Shown here in pieces: positions 14,792 through 31,813 of a stretch of 31,813 nucleotides of DNA. The position numbers and the translations under genes were made by a program. Origin of the DNA: a virus; the IMG/VR virus record IMGVR_UViG_3300038738_000032, positions 1-31,813 of that record; one strand, 5' to 3'. Positions within the stretch are counted from its first letter, which is position 1; each line of letters starts with the position of its first letter. Under the pieces are notes generated by a model. The model saw nothing but the letters and a program-made list of their open reading frames with translations. It was not told where the DNA came from and searched no databases.

Positions 14792-15211
14792 ATGAGTTTA
14801 GTAGATAAATTATTGCAATTAGATGCGAATAAAGTTATAGAAAAGCCAACCAAGGAGTTTGAAATTGAAAGACTTTCAAATTTACTTGGAGAAAAGGTAA
14901 TATTTAAGTGCAAGGCACTAGATGGAGAAACCTATGCAGATATACAAAGAAAAGCAATAGATATATCTAAAAAAGGCAATATAAGAGATATGAAAATATT
15001 TGAAATGCAAGTAATGACATGTTTAGAGGGTATAATAGAGCCTAATATGAAGGATAAAAGGTTAATGGAACATTACAGTGTACCAACACCAAAAGAGCTC
15101 ATTAAAAAGATGTTATTACCTGGAGAGATTGCTGATTTATATAACATAATAAATGAATTATCAGGTTATGAAAAAGATGAAGATGAGGATGAGGATGATA
15201 TAAAAAACTAA
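14792..15211 (+). CDS. Tail assembly chaperone, short form (XkdN-like)
   Basis: 139-residue protein of the XkdN-type tail assembly chaperone family (M-S-L-V-D-K-L-L-Q-L-D-A-N-K, then E-F-E-I-E-R-L-S, and F-E-M-Q-V-M-T-C-L-E-G-I). It coats the tape measure during tube assembly and is absent from the finished virion. The end is a run of Asp/Glu followed by A_AAA_AAC and an immediate TAA stop. A -1 slip there yields a 197-residue long form ending at 15384. Two-product chaperones made by frameshift are the rule in long-tailed phages. Confidence 0.88.
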   Translation: MSLVDKLLQLDANKVIEKPTKEFEIERLSNLLGEKVIFKCKALDGETYADIQRKAIDISKKGNIRDMKIFEMQVMTCLEGIIEPNMKDKRLMEHYSVPTPKELIKKMLLPGEIADLYNIINELSGYEKDEDEDEDDIKN

Positions 15212-15384
15212 TTGAAACAGATGCAGAAACGCAAATGATGTATCTGTTATTTAGATTTAAGGATTGGGAACCTAGTAAATATTATTGGATGCCTGCGGGA
15301 GAACGCAAAATAGTTAGAGCATTCATGAAAAAAGAAATAGAAGATAGAAATAAAGAAACAGAGGTCCTAAATAATATTAAATAA
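14792..15384 (+). CDS. Tail assembly chaperone, -1 frameshift long form (XkdN-type GT fusion)
   Basis: Reading 14792-15208, then continuing in the -1 frame from base 15208, gives a protein of 139 + 58 = 197 residues. The extension reads L-I-E-T-D-A-E-T-Q-M-M-Y-L-L-F-R-F-K-D-W, then E-P-S-K-Y-Y-W-M-P-A-G-E-R-K, and ends with a charged helix at the stop 15382-15384. It has no start codon or ribosome site of its own, is clearly protein-like, and links to the short form exactly at the slippery site. In lambda the equivalent G and GT proteins must be made in a fixed ratio. The ratio here cannot be read from sequence; no obvious stimulatory pseudoknot was found by eye. Confidence 0.8.
15202..15208 (+). 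other. -1 ribosomal frameshift site A_AAA_AAC
   Basis: The heptamer is in the correct X_XXY_YYZ phase for the chaperone frame (codons AAA 15203-15205, AAC 15206-15208) and is followed at once by TAA. The -1 frame is open from here to 15384. Confidence 0.85.
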
Positions 15385-17590: not shown

Positions 17591-18277
17591 ATGGAATTAT
17601 GGTTAAGTTTTAATAACAATGAACAAAGACTTAGATTGCCTATTCTACCTTCTAGTTTTCAAGTAGAAGTTGGCAATCTCAATACAAGAGTAAATATTAA
17701 TGAGATAGGAAATATCAATTTAATTGGGAAATCTAATTTAAAAGAAATAGTTATAGAATCATTTTTCCCAGCACAAGAATATTATTTTGTAGAATATACT
17801 GGATTTCCTAGACCTTATGAATGTGTAGAAATAATAGAGGCTTGGAGGAAGTCAGGGAGGCCTATAAGGCTAATTATAACTGAAACAAATATAAATCTAC
17901 CGATAGCCATAGAAAACTTTTCATACAGAGAAAAGGATGGCACTGGGGATGTATATTACTCATTGGAATTAGCAGAGTATGTATTTGTTGGAGTGAAGCA
18001 AGACAGTAAGTCGTATGGGTATGTACAAAATCACATTAGACCAGCAAAAGAAATCCCAAAGACATATGTTCCAAAACCTAATGACACTTTGATTACTGTT
18101 GCTAAAAAGACGACTGGGAATAGTGCCAATGCTAAAATTATAGCTGAAAGAAATCAATCCGTAGTAAAAAAGAATACAATTGTAAAACCTGAAGCTGGAA
18201 GCACTATAAGTGCAATTCTTCAACTTCATAACACCCCACCTAAACCTAAACAAGTTCAGAGAGGGCGTACAATATGA
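17591..18277 (+). CDS. LysM-containing tail/baseplate protein (XkdP-like)
   Basis: 228 residues of the XkdP type. The N-terminal half has L-P-I-L-P-S-S-F-Q-V-E-V-G-N-L-N-T-R-V and E-I-G-N-I-N-L-I-G-K, common in this family. The C-terminal half carries a LysM-like segment (Y-V-P-K-P-N-D-T-L-I-T-V-A-K-K-T-T-G-N-S-A-N-A-K-I, written here in pieces: start Y-V-P-K, then T-L-I-T-V-A). It lies directly after the tape measure and probably connects the tube to the baseplate hub while binding peptidoglycan. It overlaps the next gene by 4 bases. Confidence 0.87.
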   Translation: MELWLSFNNNEQRLRLPILPSSFQVEVGNLNTRVNINEIGNINLIGKSNLKEIVIESFFPAQEYYFVEYTGFPRPYECVEIIEAWRKSGRPIRLIITETNINLPIAIENFSYREKDGTGDVYYSLELAEYVFVGVKQDSKSYGYVQNHIRPAKEIPKTYVPKPNDTLITVAKKTTGNSANAKIIAERNQSVVKKNTIVKPEAGSTISAILQLHNTPPKPKQVQRGRTI

Positions 18278-24643: not shown

Positions 24644-24850
24644 ATGGAACAAAAACTAGTTGAATTGGGGGCAGCTAATGGGATATGGGCATTATTATTT
24701 GTAGTATTATTTTTATACACAATATATGACAGTAGAAGAAGAGAAGCGAATTATCAAAAAATTATTAATGATTTATCAGACAAGTTTGGGATAGTTGAGG
24801 ATATTCAAAAAGATGTTAGTGATATTAAAACCGAATTAAATAGGCGGTGA
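24644..24850 (+). CDS. Holin-like protein, BhlA/UviB family
   Basis: 68 residues. One transmembrane helix (A-N-G-I-W-A-L-L-F-V-V-L-F-L-Y-T-I, about residues 10-27) is followed by a basic stretch (D-S-R-R-R-E-A) and a coiled-coil tail (D-L-S-D-K-F-G-I-V-E-D-I-Q-K-D-V). This is the BhlA/UviB plan: extracellular or membrane start, then cytoplasmic coiled coil. Members act as holins or bacteriocin-release proteins. It overlaps the lysin start by 4 bases (GTGA). A second holin-like gene follows the lysin. Confidence 0.85.
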   Translation: MEQKLVELGAANGIWALLFVVLFLYTIYDSRRREANYQKIINDLSDKFGIVEDIQKDVSDIKTELNRR

Positions 24851-25911
24851 ATTCAGTGCTAAAACAAAACGAAAGTATTTTTAAAAAATCTAATCTAAAA
24901 GTATTTCTTGATAAAGGATATGAGGGGCAAAACGTAACTATTTTAATATTAGATGATAAAGGGATGCCTTTTGATTCGACTAATGTAGAAACTCCATTTA
25001 GAGAGTTTCATAAAAATGATACCGACCATAATACTTATATGTGTGCAGTAGCAAGGGAAGCAGTATCTAAAGTTAGGATTATAACTATACCTTGGAATGG
25101 TTTAACTACTCCAAATAGAAAAATTGCTATTGACTGGATAGAGGAACATAAAGATGAAATAGATATTATTAGTTGCAGTTGGGGAGGAACAACGGGTAAA
25201 GAGGAATTTGAAAGATTAAAAGATTTTGATATTCCTATTTTATGTGCTACCGGCAATGATTATAAAGTAGATAGTATTCATAGACCTGCTAGGTATGATT
25301 ATACTATAGCTATTGGTGCTGCTTCAGCAAGTAATGATTTACCTACACCTATAAGCAATGGCGGTCCTGAGGTGGATGCAATAGCCTATACTAATGTAAA
25401 TATTAAAAAAGCTAATGGTAGTTTGTTTGCAATTTCTGATACAAGTGGAGCAACAATATTTGCATCAAGTATGTTGGCTTGTTATCTATCATGGAGAAAA
25501 GCGAACAATTTACCACGATTAGGCAGAGAAGAAATAAGAAAATTCATACATGACAATTGTATTGATGTACTTCAAAAAGGACACGATTACAAATCAGGTT
25601 ATGGATTATTTGTATTACCTAAAGAAATTCCGCCAATAGAAATAAATGATGTACCGACACCAGATGAACCTATTGAAGAACCAAAAGAAGGGGATGATAA
25701 TATGTCAGGAAAAGATTACTTTAAAGATGATAATGGCAGATGGAGTGAACAATTTAATAATAAGTTAGCAGAATTAGGAATATTAAGTGGAGATGGAAAA
25801 GGAAATATCCGCCCAACTGATCCAATTACTAGAGAAGAAGTTTCTAAAATAGCAGTTGTATTAAGAGAAACTATAATGGATGAGGTAAAGGCCTTATTAG
25901 GAAAAAAGTAA
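24847..25911 (+). CDS. Subtilisin-like (S8) protease with SLH domain, lysis cassette
   Basis: 354 residues from GTG 24847. Residues 1-260 form a subtilase domain with all key residues: Asp36 (or 37) in L-I-L-D-D, His61 in D-H-N-T, oxyanion Asn137 in A-T-G-N-D and nucleophile Ser200 in D-T-S-G-A-T. No signal peptide or propeptide is visible, so a holin would have to release it. A Pro/Glu linker (about 261-288) leads to one SLH repeat (289-345; Y-F-K-D-D, L-G-I-L-S-G-D-G-K-G, I-R-P-T-D-P-I-T-R-E-E), which binds wall polymers. The frame ends G-K-K-stop at A_AAA_AAG TAA, and the -1 frame continues into an amidase. Lysins rarely carry a protease, so both the short form and the fusion deserve testing. 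Confidence 0.85.
   Translation: MNSVLKQNESIFKKSNLKVFLDKGYEGQNVTILILDDKGMPFDSTNVETPFREFHKNDTDHNTYMCAVAREAVSKVRIITIPWNGLTTPNRKIAIDWIEEHKDEIDIISCSWGGTTGKEEFERLKDFDIPILCATGNDYKVDSIHRPARYDYTIAIGAASASNDLPTPISNGGPEVDAIAYTNVNIKKANGSLFAISDTSGATIFASSMLACYLSWRKANNLPRLGREEIRKFIHDNCIDVLQKGHDYKSGYGLFVLPKEIPPIEINDVPTPDEPIEEPKEGDDNMSGKDYFKDDNGRWSEQFNNKLAELGILSGDGKGNIRPTDPITREEVSKIAVVLRETIMDEVKALLGKK
25902..25908 (+). other. Candidate -1 frameshift site A_AAA_AAG in the lysin
   Basis: The heptamer lies in X_XXY_YYZ phase (AAA 25903-25905, AAG 25906-25908), the same sequence as the well-known dnaX slippery site, and is followed directly by TAA. The -1 frame is open from 25884 to 26501 and encodes an intact amidase. 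Confidence 0.65.
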
Positions 25912-26501
25912 AAAGCGATATTACAGTCGTAATAGATCCAGGCCATAGGGAAGATACTCCTGGTAAGCAAGGTAATGGGTTAAGAGAATATGAGTTCAAT
26001 GATGATGTAGCTCATAGACTTGCAAAATTACTAGAACCTTATGTAAATGTAGTATTTACAATAACTACTGAAAATCATCCTTATTCAGAATACACCGAAA
26101 AAGGAAGAAGGTTAAATTTATTAGAACGGTGTAATATCGCAAATAAAATAAAAGGTAAAGTAATATTTGTATCTATTCATGCTAATGCAGCAACTAATCC
26201 TAATGCTTCAGGTTATGAAATATTTGTGTACAAGCATGGAAGTGAAGCTCATGAGATTGCTAAATGTGTATTAGAAGCTGGAAGAAATATTCTAGGTATA
26301 GGTACTGAGATAAAGAATAGAGGCATCAAAGAAGCAAATTTTGTTGTACTAACTAACACAAAGATGCCTGCGGTATTAGTAGAGCATGAATTCTATACTA
26401 ATAAAGAAGCTGCAGAAAAACTGAAAGACAATAATTTTAGACAACTTTGTGCAGATCATATAGCTGAAGGTTTATTAAATTATTTAGGGAGTGTGAAATA
26501 A
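25908..26501 (+). CDS. N-acetylmuramoyl-L-alanine amidase domain (Amidase_3), expressed by -1 frameshift fusion
   Basis: 197 residues in the -1 frame of the protease gene. In fusion numbering (total 551 residues, 24847-26501) the zinc site is complete: His367 in I-D-P-G-H, Glu381 in G-L-R-E-Y-E-F-N, His445 in V-S-I-H-A-N-A, and catalytic Glu513 in L-V-E-H-E-F. It cleaves the amide bond between muramic acid and L-Ala in peptidoglycan. The frame has no ATG, GTG or TTG from its opening at 25884 until 26226, already inside the domain and after the zinc His/Glu, and no ribosome site. So it can only be made whole by slippage at 25902-25908. A lost base in the A6 run (assembly error or recent mutation) is the alternative. 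Confidence 0.8.
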   Translation, partial: VKSDITVVIDPGHREDTPGKQGNGLREYEFNDDVAHRLAKLLEPYVNVVFTITTENHPYSEYTEKGRRLNLLERCNIANKIKGKVIFVSIHANAATNPNASGYEIFVYKHGSEAHEIAKCVLEAGRNILGIGTEIKNRGIKEANFVVLTNTKMPAVLVEHEFYTNKEAAEKLKDNNFRQLCADHIAEGLLNYLGSVK

Positions 26502-26813
26502 ATGATAGGTAATGAAATATTAAGTTTTATAAGGCCAGAGATCCTGATATTAATCCCAGTGCTCATAATACTAGGGCTAGTGCTAAAGAAGATTACTTTT
26601 ATTAAAGATTGGACCATACCTATTATTCTTGGAGTGTTAGGTATTTTATTTGCAGTATTAATTCTTGGCTTTGCTGAAGGATTCTATGCCCCAGTAATAG
26701 TAACTGGAATCCTACAAGGAATACTTGCAGCTGGAATGGCAGTATATGTCCATCAACTAAAAATACAAACTACTAAAAAGAGAATAGAAGATGAAGAAGA
26801 TGCCCTGGAATAA
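26502..26813 (+). CDS. Holin, Hol44 / superfamily V type
   Basis: 103 residues with three hydrophobic segments (about 11-29, 38-58 and 63-83), starting M-I-G-N-E-I-L-S-F-I-R-P-E-I-L-I-L-I-P-V-L and containing I-K-D-W-T-I-P-I-I-L-G-V-L-G-I. This matches the phage holin family Hol44. The C-terminus is charged and cytoplasmic. It starts directly after the amidase stop. Holins form the membrane holes that let the lysin reach the wall; with the BhlA-type protein the cassette has two such proteins, possibly a holin/antiholin pair. Confidence 0.83.
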   Translation: MIGNEILSFIRPEILILIPVLIILGLVLKKITFIKDWTIPIILGVLGILFAVLILGFAEGFYAPVIVTGILQGILAAGMAVYVHQLKIQTTKKRIEDEEDALE

Positions 26814-27311: not shown

Positions 27312-27731
27312 ATGATGTTTATTAAGAAAGACCCTTTTAATAGGGAAATTAAGTTGAAAAAATCAACTTGGGAGTATAAAATATGTAATTATCACAATAC
27401 TAATAATAATGGAGAGTGTGGTAACAGCCATCCCGAAATGTCTAACTATTATAATGAAGTAGAGAATAGTGTTGAACATCCACATTATATTTTGCAGGAT
27501 ACTAAGTTAGTATGTGATGACTATGGTAATGAAATCGAAATACCTAATGAGAAAAGAGAAGAATATTATAGATTTTTCTTTGATAAGGAAGATAAATTGG
27601 GTATTATTAAAACAATAGTGGATTTTGATCAAAAAAATAACGGCGACATAGTAACCACACATAAAATGAATGGTAGGATTAGAGGTGTAAGGAAAGGAGG
27701 TAGGATTATATATGATAGTTCAAAAAAATAA
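27312..27731 (+). CDS. Putative RNase toxin, PBECR/RelE-like
   Basis: 139 residues. The segment W-E-Y-K-I-C-N-Y-H-N, then S-H-P-E-M-S-N-Y-Y-N-E-V-E-N-S-V-E-H-P-H, and later I-K-T-I-V-D-F-D-Q-K-N-N-G-D-I-V-T, followed by G-R-I-I-Y, follows the plan of phage-type PBECR (barnase-EndoU-colicin-RelE-like) nucleases: a conserved H-P-E helix, N-P-like turn, then a sheet ending in a charged segment. It overlaps the DUF2283 gene by 20 bases. That arrangement suggests toxin then antitoxin. The family call is by eye and moderately sure; activity is unproven. Confidence 0.5.
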   Translation: MMFIKKDPFNREIKLKKSTWEYKICNYHNTNNNGECGNSHPEMSNYYNEVENSVEHPHYILQDTKLVCDDYGNEIEIPNEKREEYYRFFFDKEDKLGIIKTIVDFDQKNNGDIVTTHKMNGRIRGVRKGGRIIYDSSKK

Positions 27732-29485: not shown

Positions 29486-31813
29486 TTGAAAACCTTAAAA
29501 CTAACGGAATATTATAAGATAATTAATCCTGAATATGTTTATCTAAAACTTACTCCAAACAACTCTATTAGAAATTACAATTCGGATAAAATAGCAAAGG
29601 CAATTAGCTCACTTTATATGAATCTTAGAGCCAGAATAAGAAAAGTAGATAAACAGAGACTTATTTATAAACCATCTAAAGTAGTTTACTTTATGTATAT
29701 TGAGAAAAAGCGAGTTGAGTTTTACTTTATTATACCAAAACAACATTTAGGATTAATCAAAGATAAAATAGGAGATACCTGGAAGGGAATAACAATTACA
29801 GAGGTTGATCAGTTACCTACTTTTTCTGACGAAGCAGTTAAATACTATCTAACATATAAGAATGAAGATGCTTTATCTTTGGCAGTAGATAGAAGGACCA
29901 ATACTTTATTAACATCTTCAATGAATGTAATTGATGTAATGGAAGAAGGGGATAAAGTTGGAATACTGTATAATTTTATGCCTACCACTCAATTTACCTG
30001 GAGAGCGAATTATGATAATACCATGAAGAAATTAAAAGAAAACAAACCAATAGATAGAGAAAAATTTAATGCTGCATATATTGGGAAAATGCTATTAAAT
30101 CTTGTAATTGCAGTAATGAGTATAATAACCGATACAGCAAATGATGTATTAGGGGTAGTAGCAAATACAAACGTAAAAGAAGATAGTTTAGTAGATCTAT
30201 TAGCTGCAAGGCTAAACTCTAAAGAACTAAGTTCTGCAACTAGAAATAAAAAGGAGCAAACTGTACTAGATACTCAAATAGCAATTATTTCAGAGAGTAC
30301 AGATAAGAATAGAAAAGATAATAACGCTATGGCAGTTATACAGAGTTTTAAAAGCATTTCAGAGGATAACGAACTAATACATAAGAAACAAAAGAAAAGT
30401 TTCCAAATAAACGATTATAGATGGCAAAATACTGATTCAATTAAAGTCAGTACACTTGAATGTCAAAACTTTATAGCACTACCTGGTAGAGAACTATTAG
30501 AACAATATAACTTTATTGATAAAATAGATACTTTTGAAAGTCAAGTTCCTGAGGAACTCCAACAAGGTGTAATGTGTATAGGTGACAATACGTTTAAAGG
30601 GCAAGTGACGAAATCATATTTAACTGAGGATAAAGATTTAAGAAACTTAACTTTAACTATTATAGGCCCTACAAGAGCTGGTAAAACAAAGCTAATTGCT
30701 AACTTATCAAATGATAGTATTAAACATGGAGAATGTACGATTTTATTTGACTTTTGTGGCAATGCAGAGCTATCTGAAGAAGTAGCTAGTGTAATTAATC
30801 CAGATAAGGTATTAAATATTGATTGTAGTGATTTTAATAACCTACAAGGATTAGGATATAATGAGGTTACACCTATGAACAATAATGTATTTGAAGTATA
30901 TAGGTGTGCAAAAGCAAAAACAAGTCAATTAATGACGTTGATAAATTCTATAAACAGCGATGACGGAGAACTTCGCGCTAGAATGGAAAGATATTTAGAA
31001 GCTGCAGCTGTAGTAGTATTTATTCAAGATGGGCCTATTAAAGATGTATTTGAAATCCTGCAAAATCATTTATCGAGAAAATACTATATAGATAATATTC
31101 CCGAAAACCAAAAGGATAACTTGAAAGAATATATATTAGCTTTACAAGAACTTGACGAATGGTCTAAAGCCACTAAAGATACTCCATCAGAAATAATCGG
31201 GACTAAACTAAGCTATGTACAAGGAATATTAAACAGGGTTAATAAACTAAAGCAAAATACATACATGGAGCTTATGCTAAAAAAAGACTGTAGTAATAAT
31301 ATTAACTTGATTGATGAAATGCAAAAAGGTCAATTAATCTGTATTAAAATGCCTGAAATAATGTTTAATACAGAAACAGAGAAAGATATATATGCAACTT
31401 ATTGGTTAACTAAAATATGGGGAGCATTGCAAAAGAGAAAATGGGATATACCAGAGGAAGATAAAAGGGTGAAAGTTAATATAGTATTTGATGAATTATA
31501 CCAGGTACCAAATTGTCAGGAATTTTTAAGAAGTAAGTTATCTCAAATTGCTAAATTCACTTGTAAGCCTATAATCAGTTGTCATTACTTAGGTCAGATA
31601 GGTATTATAAGGGATGAATTAAAGGCTGCTAATAGTTCTTATATGTTAATTAGTGGATGCGATAAAGACAATTATAAAGAATTAAAGGACGAATTATATC
31701 CTTATGAGGTAGAAGATCTATTGAATCTAAAGAGATACCATAGCCTTAATCTGATTAAGTATGAAAAAGGTTGGGCAAAGTTTATAACTAAATTACCTAA
31801 ACCTATAAAATAG
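29486..31813 (+). CDS. Conjugation-type ATPase (VirB4/TraG/HerA-like), 775 aa
   Basis: 775 residues from TTG 29486 to the last base of the window. A 390-residue N-terminal domain with patches such as P-E-Y-V-Y-L-K-L-T-P-N-N-S-I-R-N, Y-F-M-Y-I-E-K-K-R-V-E-F-Y-F-I-I-P and A-V-D-R-R-T-N-T-L-L is followed by a RecA-type motor: Walker A G-P-T-R-A-G-K-T at 394-401 and Walker B V-N-I-V-F-D-E with Asp669-Glu670. The same N-terminal plan is known to me from Gram-positive conjugation-type ATPases, often called TraG- or VirB4-like. It would drive DNA or protein transfer. Its two small membrane neighbours support this. What follows is outside the window. Confidence 0.75.
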   Translation: MKTLKLTEYYKIINPEYVYLKLTPNNSIRNYNSDKIAKAISSLYMNLRARIRKVDKQRLIYKPSKVVYFMYIEKKRVEFYFIIPKQHLGLIKDKIGDTWKGITITEVDQLPTFSDEAVKYYLTYKNEDALSLAVDRRTNTLLTSSMNVIDVMEEGDKVGILYNFMPTTQFTWRANYDNTMKKLKENKPIDREKFNAAYIGKMLLNLVIAVMSIITDTANDVLGVVANTNVKEDSLVDLLAARLNSKELSSATRNKKEQTVLDTQIAIISESTDKNRKDNNAMAVIQSFKSISEDNELIHKKQKKSFQINDYRWQNTDSIKVSTLECQNFIALPGRELLEQYNFIDKIDTFESQVPEELQQGVMCIGDNTFKGQVTKSYLTEDKDLRNLTLTIIGPTRAGKTKLIANLSNDSIKHGECTILFDFCGNAELSEEVASVINPDKVLNIDCSDFNNLQGLGYNEVTPMNNNVFEVYRCAKAKTSQLMTLINSINSDDGELRARMERYLEAAAVVVFIQDGPIKDVFEILQNHLSRKYYIDNIPENQKDNLKEYILALQELDEWSKATKDTPSEIIGTKLSYVQGILNRVNKLKQNTYMELMLKKDCSNNINLIDEMQKGQLICIKMPEIMFNTETEKDIYATYWLTKIWGALQKRKWDIPEEDKRVKVNIVFDELYQVPNCQEFLRSKLSQIAKFTCKPIISCHYLGQIGIIRDELKAANSSYMLISGCDKDNYKELKDELYPYEVEDLLNLKRYHSLNLIKYEKGWAKFITKLPKPIK

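Follow-up and report, generated by a model that had tools for sequence, protein, structure and literature searches.

Endolysins have been studied as enzymes that cut the bacterial cell wall, yet many Firmicutes bear an S-layer that is able to shield this wall. Several endolysins, among them Lys170, LysIME-EF1, CTP1L, and CD27L, consist of two polypeptides that are made from one gene with the help of an internal start (PMC9430671; PMC4777826). LysBT1 combines an amidase with an SLH domain, and for this enzyme it has been proposed that the S-layer blocks access to the wall (PMC12285257). Programmed changes of reading frame are known from other phage genes: many phages make their tail chaperones by -1 frameshifting, and A_AAA_AAG is the most slip-prone heptamer of those compared in Escherichia coli, where the strength of the slip has been tied to the presence of a sole tRNA-Lys (reviewed in PMC5009743).

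Here, we describe a lysis locus of a Clostridia-type prophage in which these themes meet. The window, i.e., the whole stretch of DNA that was analyzed, comprises the 31,813 nucleotides of the IMG/VR virus record IMGVR_UViG_3300038738_000032. A preliminary description proposed that a -1 frameshift fuses a subtilisin-SLH protein to a zinc amidase. The parts of this proposal stood: protease, SLH domain, and amidase are intact and lie between two holin genes (Table 1), and S8-amidase fusions in relatives, one of them with all three domains, support a functional link among them. The fusion by recoding is itself plausible rather than established, and we give an even chance to the locus encoding a subtilisin-headed, wall-anchored lysin whose amidase is made by -1 slippage.

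Table 1. Features of the lysis locus and of the tail-chaperone site of the same phage (window coordinates).
Feature	Position	Strand	Remarks
Second slippery heptamer, A_AAA_AAC before TAA	15202..15208	+	End of XkdN-like tail chaperone gene
BhlA-type holin	24644..24850	+	Directly upstream of S8-SLH; Pfam Holin_BhlA, E 6.6e-22
S8 protease-SLH, 0-frame product	24856..25911	+	351 aa; start GTG 24856
Shine-Dalgarno AGAAGGGGA for internal ATG 25702	25686..25694	+	-8.4 kcal/mol, spacing 7
Predicted internal ORF from ATG 25702	25702..25911	+	SLH domain alone; SLH-amidase upon -1 shift
GAGGT, SD-like	25882..25886	+	Possible slip stimulator or ribosome site; upstream of ATT 25896
ATT, rival start codon in amidase frame	25896..25898	+	SD-like -7.0, spacing 8
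Slippery heptamer A_AAA_AAG	25902..25908	+	Exact phase; codons GGA AAA AAG TAA
0-frame stop TAA	25909..25911	+	Immediately 3' of heptamer
Amidase_3 zinc amidase, start-less -1 frame	25911..26501	+	196 aa plus stop
Hol44-type holin	26502..26813	+	Directly downstream of amidase; Pfam Phage_holin_5_2, 6e-18

The Subtilisin-SLH Protein

The start of the S8-SLH gene had been placed at GTG 24847, but a Shine-Dalgarno sequence is present at GTG 24856 (-9.6 kcal/mol) and absent at the longer-reading codon, which makes GTG 24856 the most likely start. The product matches Peptidase_S8 (Pfam, E 4e-16) and SLH (E 8.5e-8, ~9e-8), the latter with the ITRxE-type motif ITREE, and 23 SLH repeats or matches are found in the host, FC7. 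The AlphaFold model, which covers S8-SLH only, has a pLDDT of 80.6 and matches subtilisin BPN' in Foldseek (E 8e-15), while the viral structure match ranked best is a phage protein named after the S-layer homology domain. The catalytic residues D36/D37, H61, N137, and S200 (fusion numbering) are intact, as described before, and the D, H, N, and S positions are kept across 10 relatives; the GTSMAxP motif is degenerate and reads DTSGATI. With the subtilisin fold, the Asp-His-Ser triad, and the oxyanion Asn, the protein is by its sequence a peptidase S8 (subtilase). Its end coincides with that of the stand-alone S8-SLH proteins L003 and L013, a resemblance by which the S8-SLH protein made in the 0 frame is judged complete.

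The Amidase Frame and Neighboring Genes

The -1 frame matches Amidase_3 (Pfam, 3.6e-40), PDB entry 5emi (9e-19), and a PHROG endolysin family (4e-41), and leads into an intact domain with H367, E381, H445, and E513 (fusion numbering) in place. It is open from 25884, preceded by a TGA at 25881, to the TAA at 26499-26501, and ATG, GTG, and TTG are absent ahead of GTG 26226, so that the description of this frame as start-less was correct. The accompanying statement that it has no ribosome site was not fully right: GAUGAGGUA (-7.0 kcal/mol) lies 8 nt upstream of an ATT codon at 25896, although a Shine-Dalgarno sequence as good as this one precedes 4.6% of positions. Another ATT is found at 25920 and an ATA at 25932. 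The frame switch falls between the domains, 22 residues past SLH and 6 ahead of the amidase core.

Elsewhere in the window, a LysM-like tail protein (17591-18277) matches phrog_380, which is filed under endolysin in PHROGs; its position suggests a tail protein of the XkdP type, and we do not regard it as a second lysin. The end of the window (29486-31813) encodes a large protein with no Pfam match that belongs to phrog_5156 (unknown function, E 4e-96), and in the related prophage L005, FtsK-like and relaxation-like proteins are located close to the lysis genes. A plasmid or conjugation link is possible for these proteins.

The Slippery Heptamer at the Junction

Re-reading of the sequence confirmed that the S8-SLH frame ends in A_AAA_AAG TAA (25902-25911) in slippery phase. 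The junction has the layout of a frameshift site, with an X_XXY_YYZ heptamer in phase before the 0-frame stop and an open, start-less -1 frame. In-phase A_AAA_AAR occurs at 12 of the 9525 codons of the window, so that the 28-nt overlap, with its 9 codons, has a chance of ~1% of containing one; for X_XXY_YYZ of any kind (Y = A/T), the chance is ~6%. A_AAA_AAG itself is found in phase 7 times in the window. Of the listed window genes, the one at 27312-27731 has a comparable end, A_AAA_AAA TAA, and lacks a -1 partner. In the host, A_AAA_AAG followed by a stop was not seen at the end of any of 298 ORFs, and avoidance of the heptamer within genes is only mild (42 occurrences versus 57.3 ± 6.9 expected; 111,475 codons, synonymous shuffles). 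A search of viral contigs with a pattern in which the A run could be replaced by 4-9 bases returned no second copy. The slip motif alone is thus unusual and suggestive, but not decisive.

Frameshift stimulators are common but not obligatory. At the lysin site, the 3' structure is not significant (folding z -0.5 to -1.4; matched 54 nt z -0.84), and GAGGT lies 15 nt before the heptamer, just beyond the 10-14 nt at which an upstream Shine-Dalgarno sequence is counted as a stimulator. The host has two tRNA-Lys genes of the CUU type and one of the UUU type, which is interrupted by an assembly gap, and no tRNA genes were found in the phage. With two tRNA-Lys types in the host and no significant structure 3' of the heptamer, the earlier suggestion of a set ratio as in dnaX is weakened.

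The same phage has a second site of this kind where its XkdN-like tail chaperone gene (phrog_389, 1e-37; locus at window 14792-15384) ends. The -1 extension of this gene is start-less, continues for 58 codons past the slip, ends at about 15384, and matches phrog_2722 (1.7e-15). It is accompanied by a 10-bp 3' hairpin at 15216-15248 (-11.3 kcal/mol, z -2.84), and the site is probably a conventional tail-chaperone frameshift. Both sites share the layout of a slip heptamer before TAA, whereas a significant hairpin is present at the chaperone site only.

The Host and a Second Prophage

The same A6 run and TAA are present in scaffold JAKELU010000004.1 of Firmicutes bacterium FC7, with 9062 of 9062 nt identical. 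The remaining differences between the window and the FC7 assembly are N gaps and contig ends only, and given the same run in FC7, an assembly slip is unlikely; as both copies represent one strain, the match says nothing on evolutionary conservation. FC7 probably belongs to the Illumina-sequenced F1RT consortium (PMC9647946), with which it was matched by name only. The prophage occupies the end of a scaffold in FC7, where the window's end is followed by ordinary bacterial genes.

In a second FC7 prophage (L008:1869-2570, contig C11), the lysin is an Amidase_3 enzyme whose tail is SLH-like and is preceded by an internal start. This amidase is 37% identical to that of the window; Pfam does not score the tail as SLH. 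The flanks of the lysis genes of this prophage contain short stretches that match the window at 82-89%. An SLH-linked amidase therefore fits this host, given this lysin and the 23 host SLH repeats.

A Probable Internal Start Before the SLH Domain

The start at ATG 25702, just before the SLH domain, was absent from the preliminary description. Its Shine-Dalgarno sequence is the strongest among the internal start codons between 25000 and 26480. An in-frame start, a good Shine-Dalgarno sequence, and a position at a domain boundary are the marks of internal-start endolysins, and ATG 25702 has all three; initiation at this codon is predicted to be likely. In 15 family members, in-frame starts with a Shine-Dalgarno value of -8 or below are enriched in the linkers (13/494 codons versus 9/5215 elsewhere; odds ratio 15.6, p 3e-9), where the p-value is optimistic because the limits of the linkers were set after a first look. 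Two such boundary sites, at ATG codons 260 and 444 (-11.7 and -12.6), are found in the single-frame lysin L085.

Relatives of the Subtilisin-Headed Lysin

Profile searches revealed the same S8 protease at about fifteen loci, mostly in phage or prophage lysis cassettes. The S8 protein is rare: it had no match among phage records at E 1e-5, and no close relatives turned up when viral contigs were scanned with the proteins P0001 and P0002 singly. The relative with an 86% identical terminase (L002/L005) differs in its lysis module, and the host matches of the S8 profile L021-L030, L032, and L012, which have no lysis context, were set aside as ordinary bacterial subtilases.

Stand-alone S8-SLH proteins are encoded by L003 (a Tepidibacter phage-like plasmid), L013/L034, and L020, the SLH-like tail of the latter being unscored by Pfam. 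Downstream of the gene in L020 lies a separate lysin that has an ATG of its own, and the lysins of L013 likewise have their own starts. The S8 domain is joined to Cu_amine_oxidN1 in L040, L047, L049, and L079, with similar tails in L082 and L084. In-frame fusions to amidases comprise S8-Amidase_2 (L033, L041), S8-Amidase_2-Cu_amine_oxidN1 (L050), S8-Amidase_3 (L036), and L085:1498-3003, a single-frame S8-Amidase_3-SLH lysin located after a holin gene. Cu_amine_oxidN1 occupies the SLH position in the phage lysins L040, L047, L049, L050, and L079, where it may act as a wall-binding domain. An S8-Cu_amine_oxidN1-like gene on a short contig (L048, G837) is broken by a TGA.

None of the relatives found has an ortholog of the S8-SLH/Amidase_3 junction. 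A comparison of relatives had been suggested as a check of the recoding: two of the suggested signs against recoding are seen in the wider family, with frames joined in L033, L036, L041, L050, and L085 and separately started lysins in L020 and L013, whereas conservation of the A6 run and TAA has no orthologous junction to be read from, so that recoding is neither conserved nor excluded. As the relatives are stand-alone or fused in frame, the sequences give good support to the modular subtilisin-headed lysin as a real, little-described family, of which recoding is not a conserved feature. In the open-access literature, searches for recoded endolysins or for S8 proteases within lysis cassettes were without a match, which is weak evidence of absence. 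The earlier claim that such a lysin lacks a precedent agrees with these text searches, but the combination of proteins occurs elsewhere without recoding.

Possible Explanations for the Junction

Slippage is favored by the start-less amidase, the inter-domain switch, the complete 0-frame product, and the similar chaperone site, and through it the amidase would gain an SLH domain, as in L085 and apparently also in the host's other prophage. Against it stand a junction shared by none of the relatives found, the lack of a significant hairpin, the two tRNA-Lys types, the fact that in-phase A_AAA_AAG is not rare, and the alternative of reading the amidase N-terminus from ATT 25896 or 25920. The latter would be the case if the amidase were started separately, from one of these AUU codons and maybe coupled to termination, or from a former ATG that was lost, with the slip motif as a coincidence of lysine codons. 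The Shine-Dalgarno-like sequence ahead of ATT 25896 fits this explanation, as do the good boundary starts that are common in relatives, the separate lysin of L020, and the position of ATT 25920, which aligns with the ATG of the free-standing amidase encoded by the second FC7 prophage. However, AUU is very rarely used as a start codon and is a weak one, equally good Shine-Dalgarno sequences precede 4.6% of positions, the free amidase would have no wall-binding domain, and a slip motif in such a phase has a chance of only about one in a hundred. We consider a separate start improbable.

Alternatively, an ancestral in-frame S8-SLH-amidase may have lost one A through a recent indel in the prophage, with incidental slippage still making some amidase. 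In-frame S8-amidase fusions are known in relatives, one extra A joins the frames, and A runs are the usual sites of indels, the junction run being one of three A6 in the ORF. Such an indel must nevertheless have landed by chance in a short inter-domain linker and before a codon that happens to be a stop, in a frame where stops have a density of 12%, while the halves are otherwise intact, the 0-frame product has a natural stand-alone form, and the A count is the same in both assemblies. This explanation is unlikely, if worth keeping in mind. Slippage of RNA polymerase on the junction's A6 run could produce some transcripts with an extra A and joined frames, but six A are short for this process, which makes it very improbable. 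An error of sequencing or assembly in the run is the most doubtful explanation of all, as the run is identical in a second assembly and FC7 and its consortium were Illumina-sequenced. Taken together, programmed or functional -1 slippage at 25902 is plausible, with the arguments read from the sequence about evenly poised.

Proposed Lysis Mechanism and Comparison With Known Systems

In the proposed mechanism, the two holins would open the membrane before the lysin acts. The SLH domain would tether the S8 protease to the host wall polysaccharide, the protease would clear S-layer or other surface proteins, and Amidase_3 would cut the peptidoglycan. A ribosome slip on A_AAA_AAG before TAA, at a presumed rate, would produce S8-SLH-amidase as a -1 extension, and a slip after internal initiation at 25702 would give SLH-amidase. 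We infer the target of the protease by analogy, from the SLH domain, the SLH proteins of the host, and the barrier proposed for LysBT1; the protease could remove such a block. Frameshifting and the internal start would together allow one gene to give S8-SLH, S8-SLH-amidase, SLH, and SLH-amidase in a ratio set by the phage, within a wider subtilisin-headed family aimed at protein-coated (S-layer) Firmicutes. This combined reading is tentative and falls somewhat short of even odds. A lysin family with its own subtilisin and boundary ribosome sites would show a phage route through the protein coat, and the -1 junction, if it works, would be a recoded endolysin, for which the open-access literature gave no example.

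Like the dnaX A_AAA_AAG and the G/GT site of phage tail chaperones, the lysin site has an in-phase heptamer and a start-less downstream frame; it differs from these bacterial -1 sites in its lack of a significant 3' hairpin and in a host with two tRNA-Lys types. With LysBT1, the locus shares a zinc amidase, a single SLH domain, and its location in a prophage of an SLH-bearing host, whereas LysBT1 has another type of amidase, no protease, and no frame switch. In the fused relatives (L033, L036, L041, L050, and L085), which lie within or next to a lysis cassette, the same S8 domain is linked to a zinc amidase, but they are encoded in one frame that needs no slip motif, and the domain order of L085 is S8-Amidase_3-SLH instead of S8-SLH-Amidase_3. 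In two-polypeptide endolysins, a ribosome site at the domain boundary yields a long and a short product, and the window and its relatives have such sites by sequence; the window differs in that its head is a subtilisin, its amidase lies in another frame, and its internal start is a predicted one.
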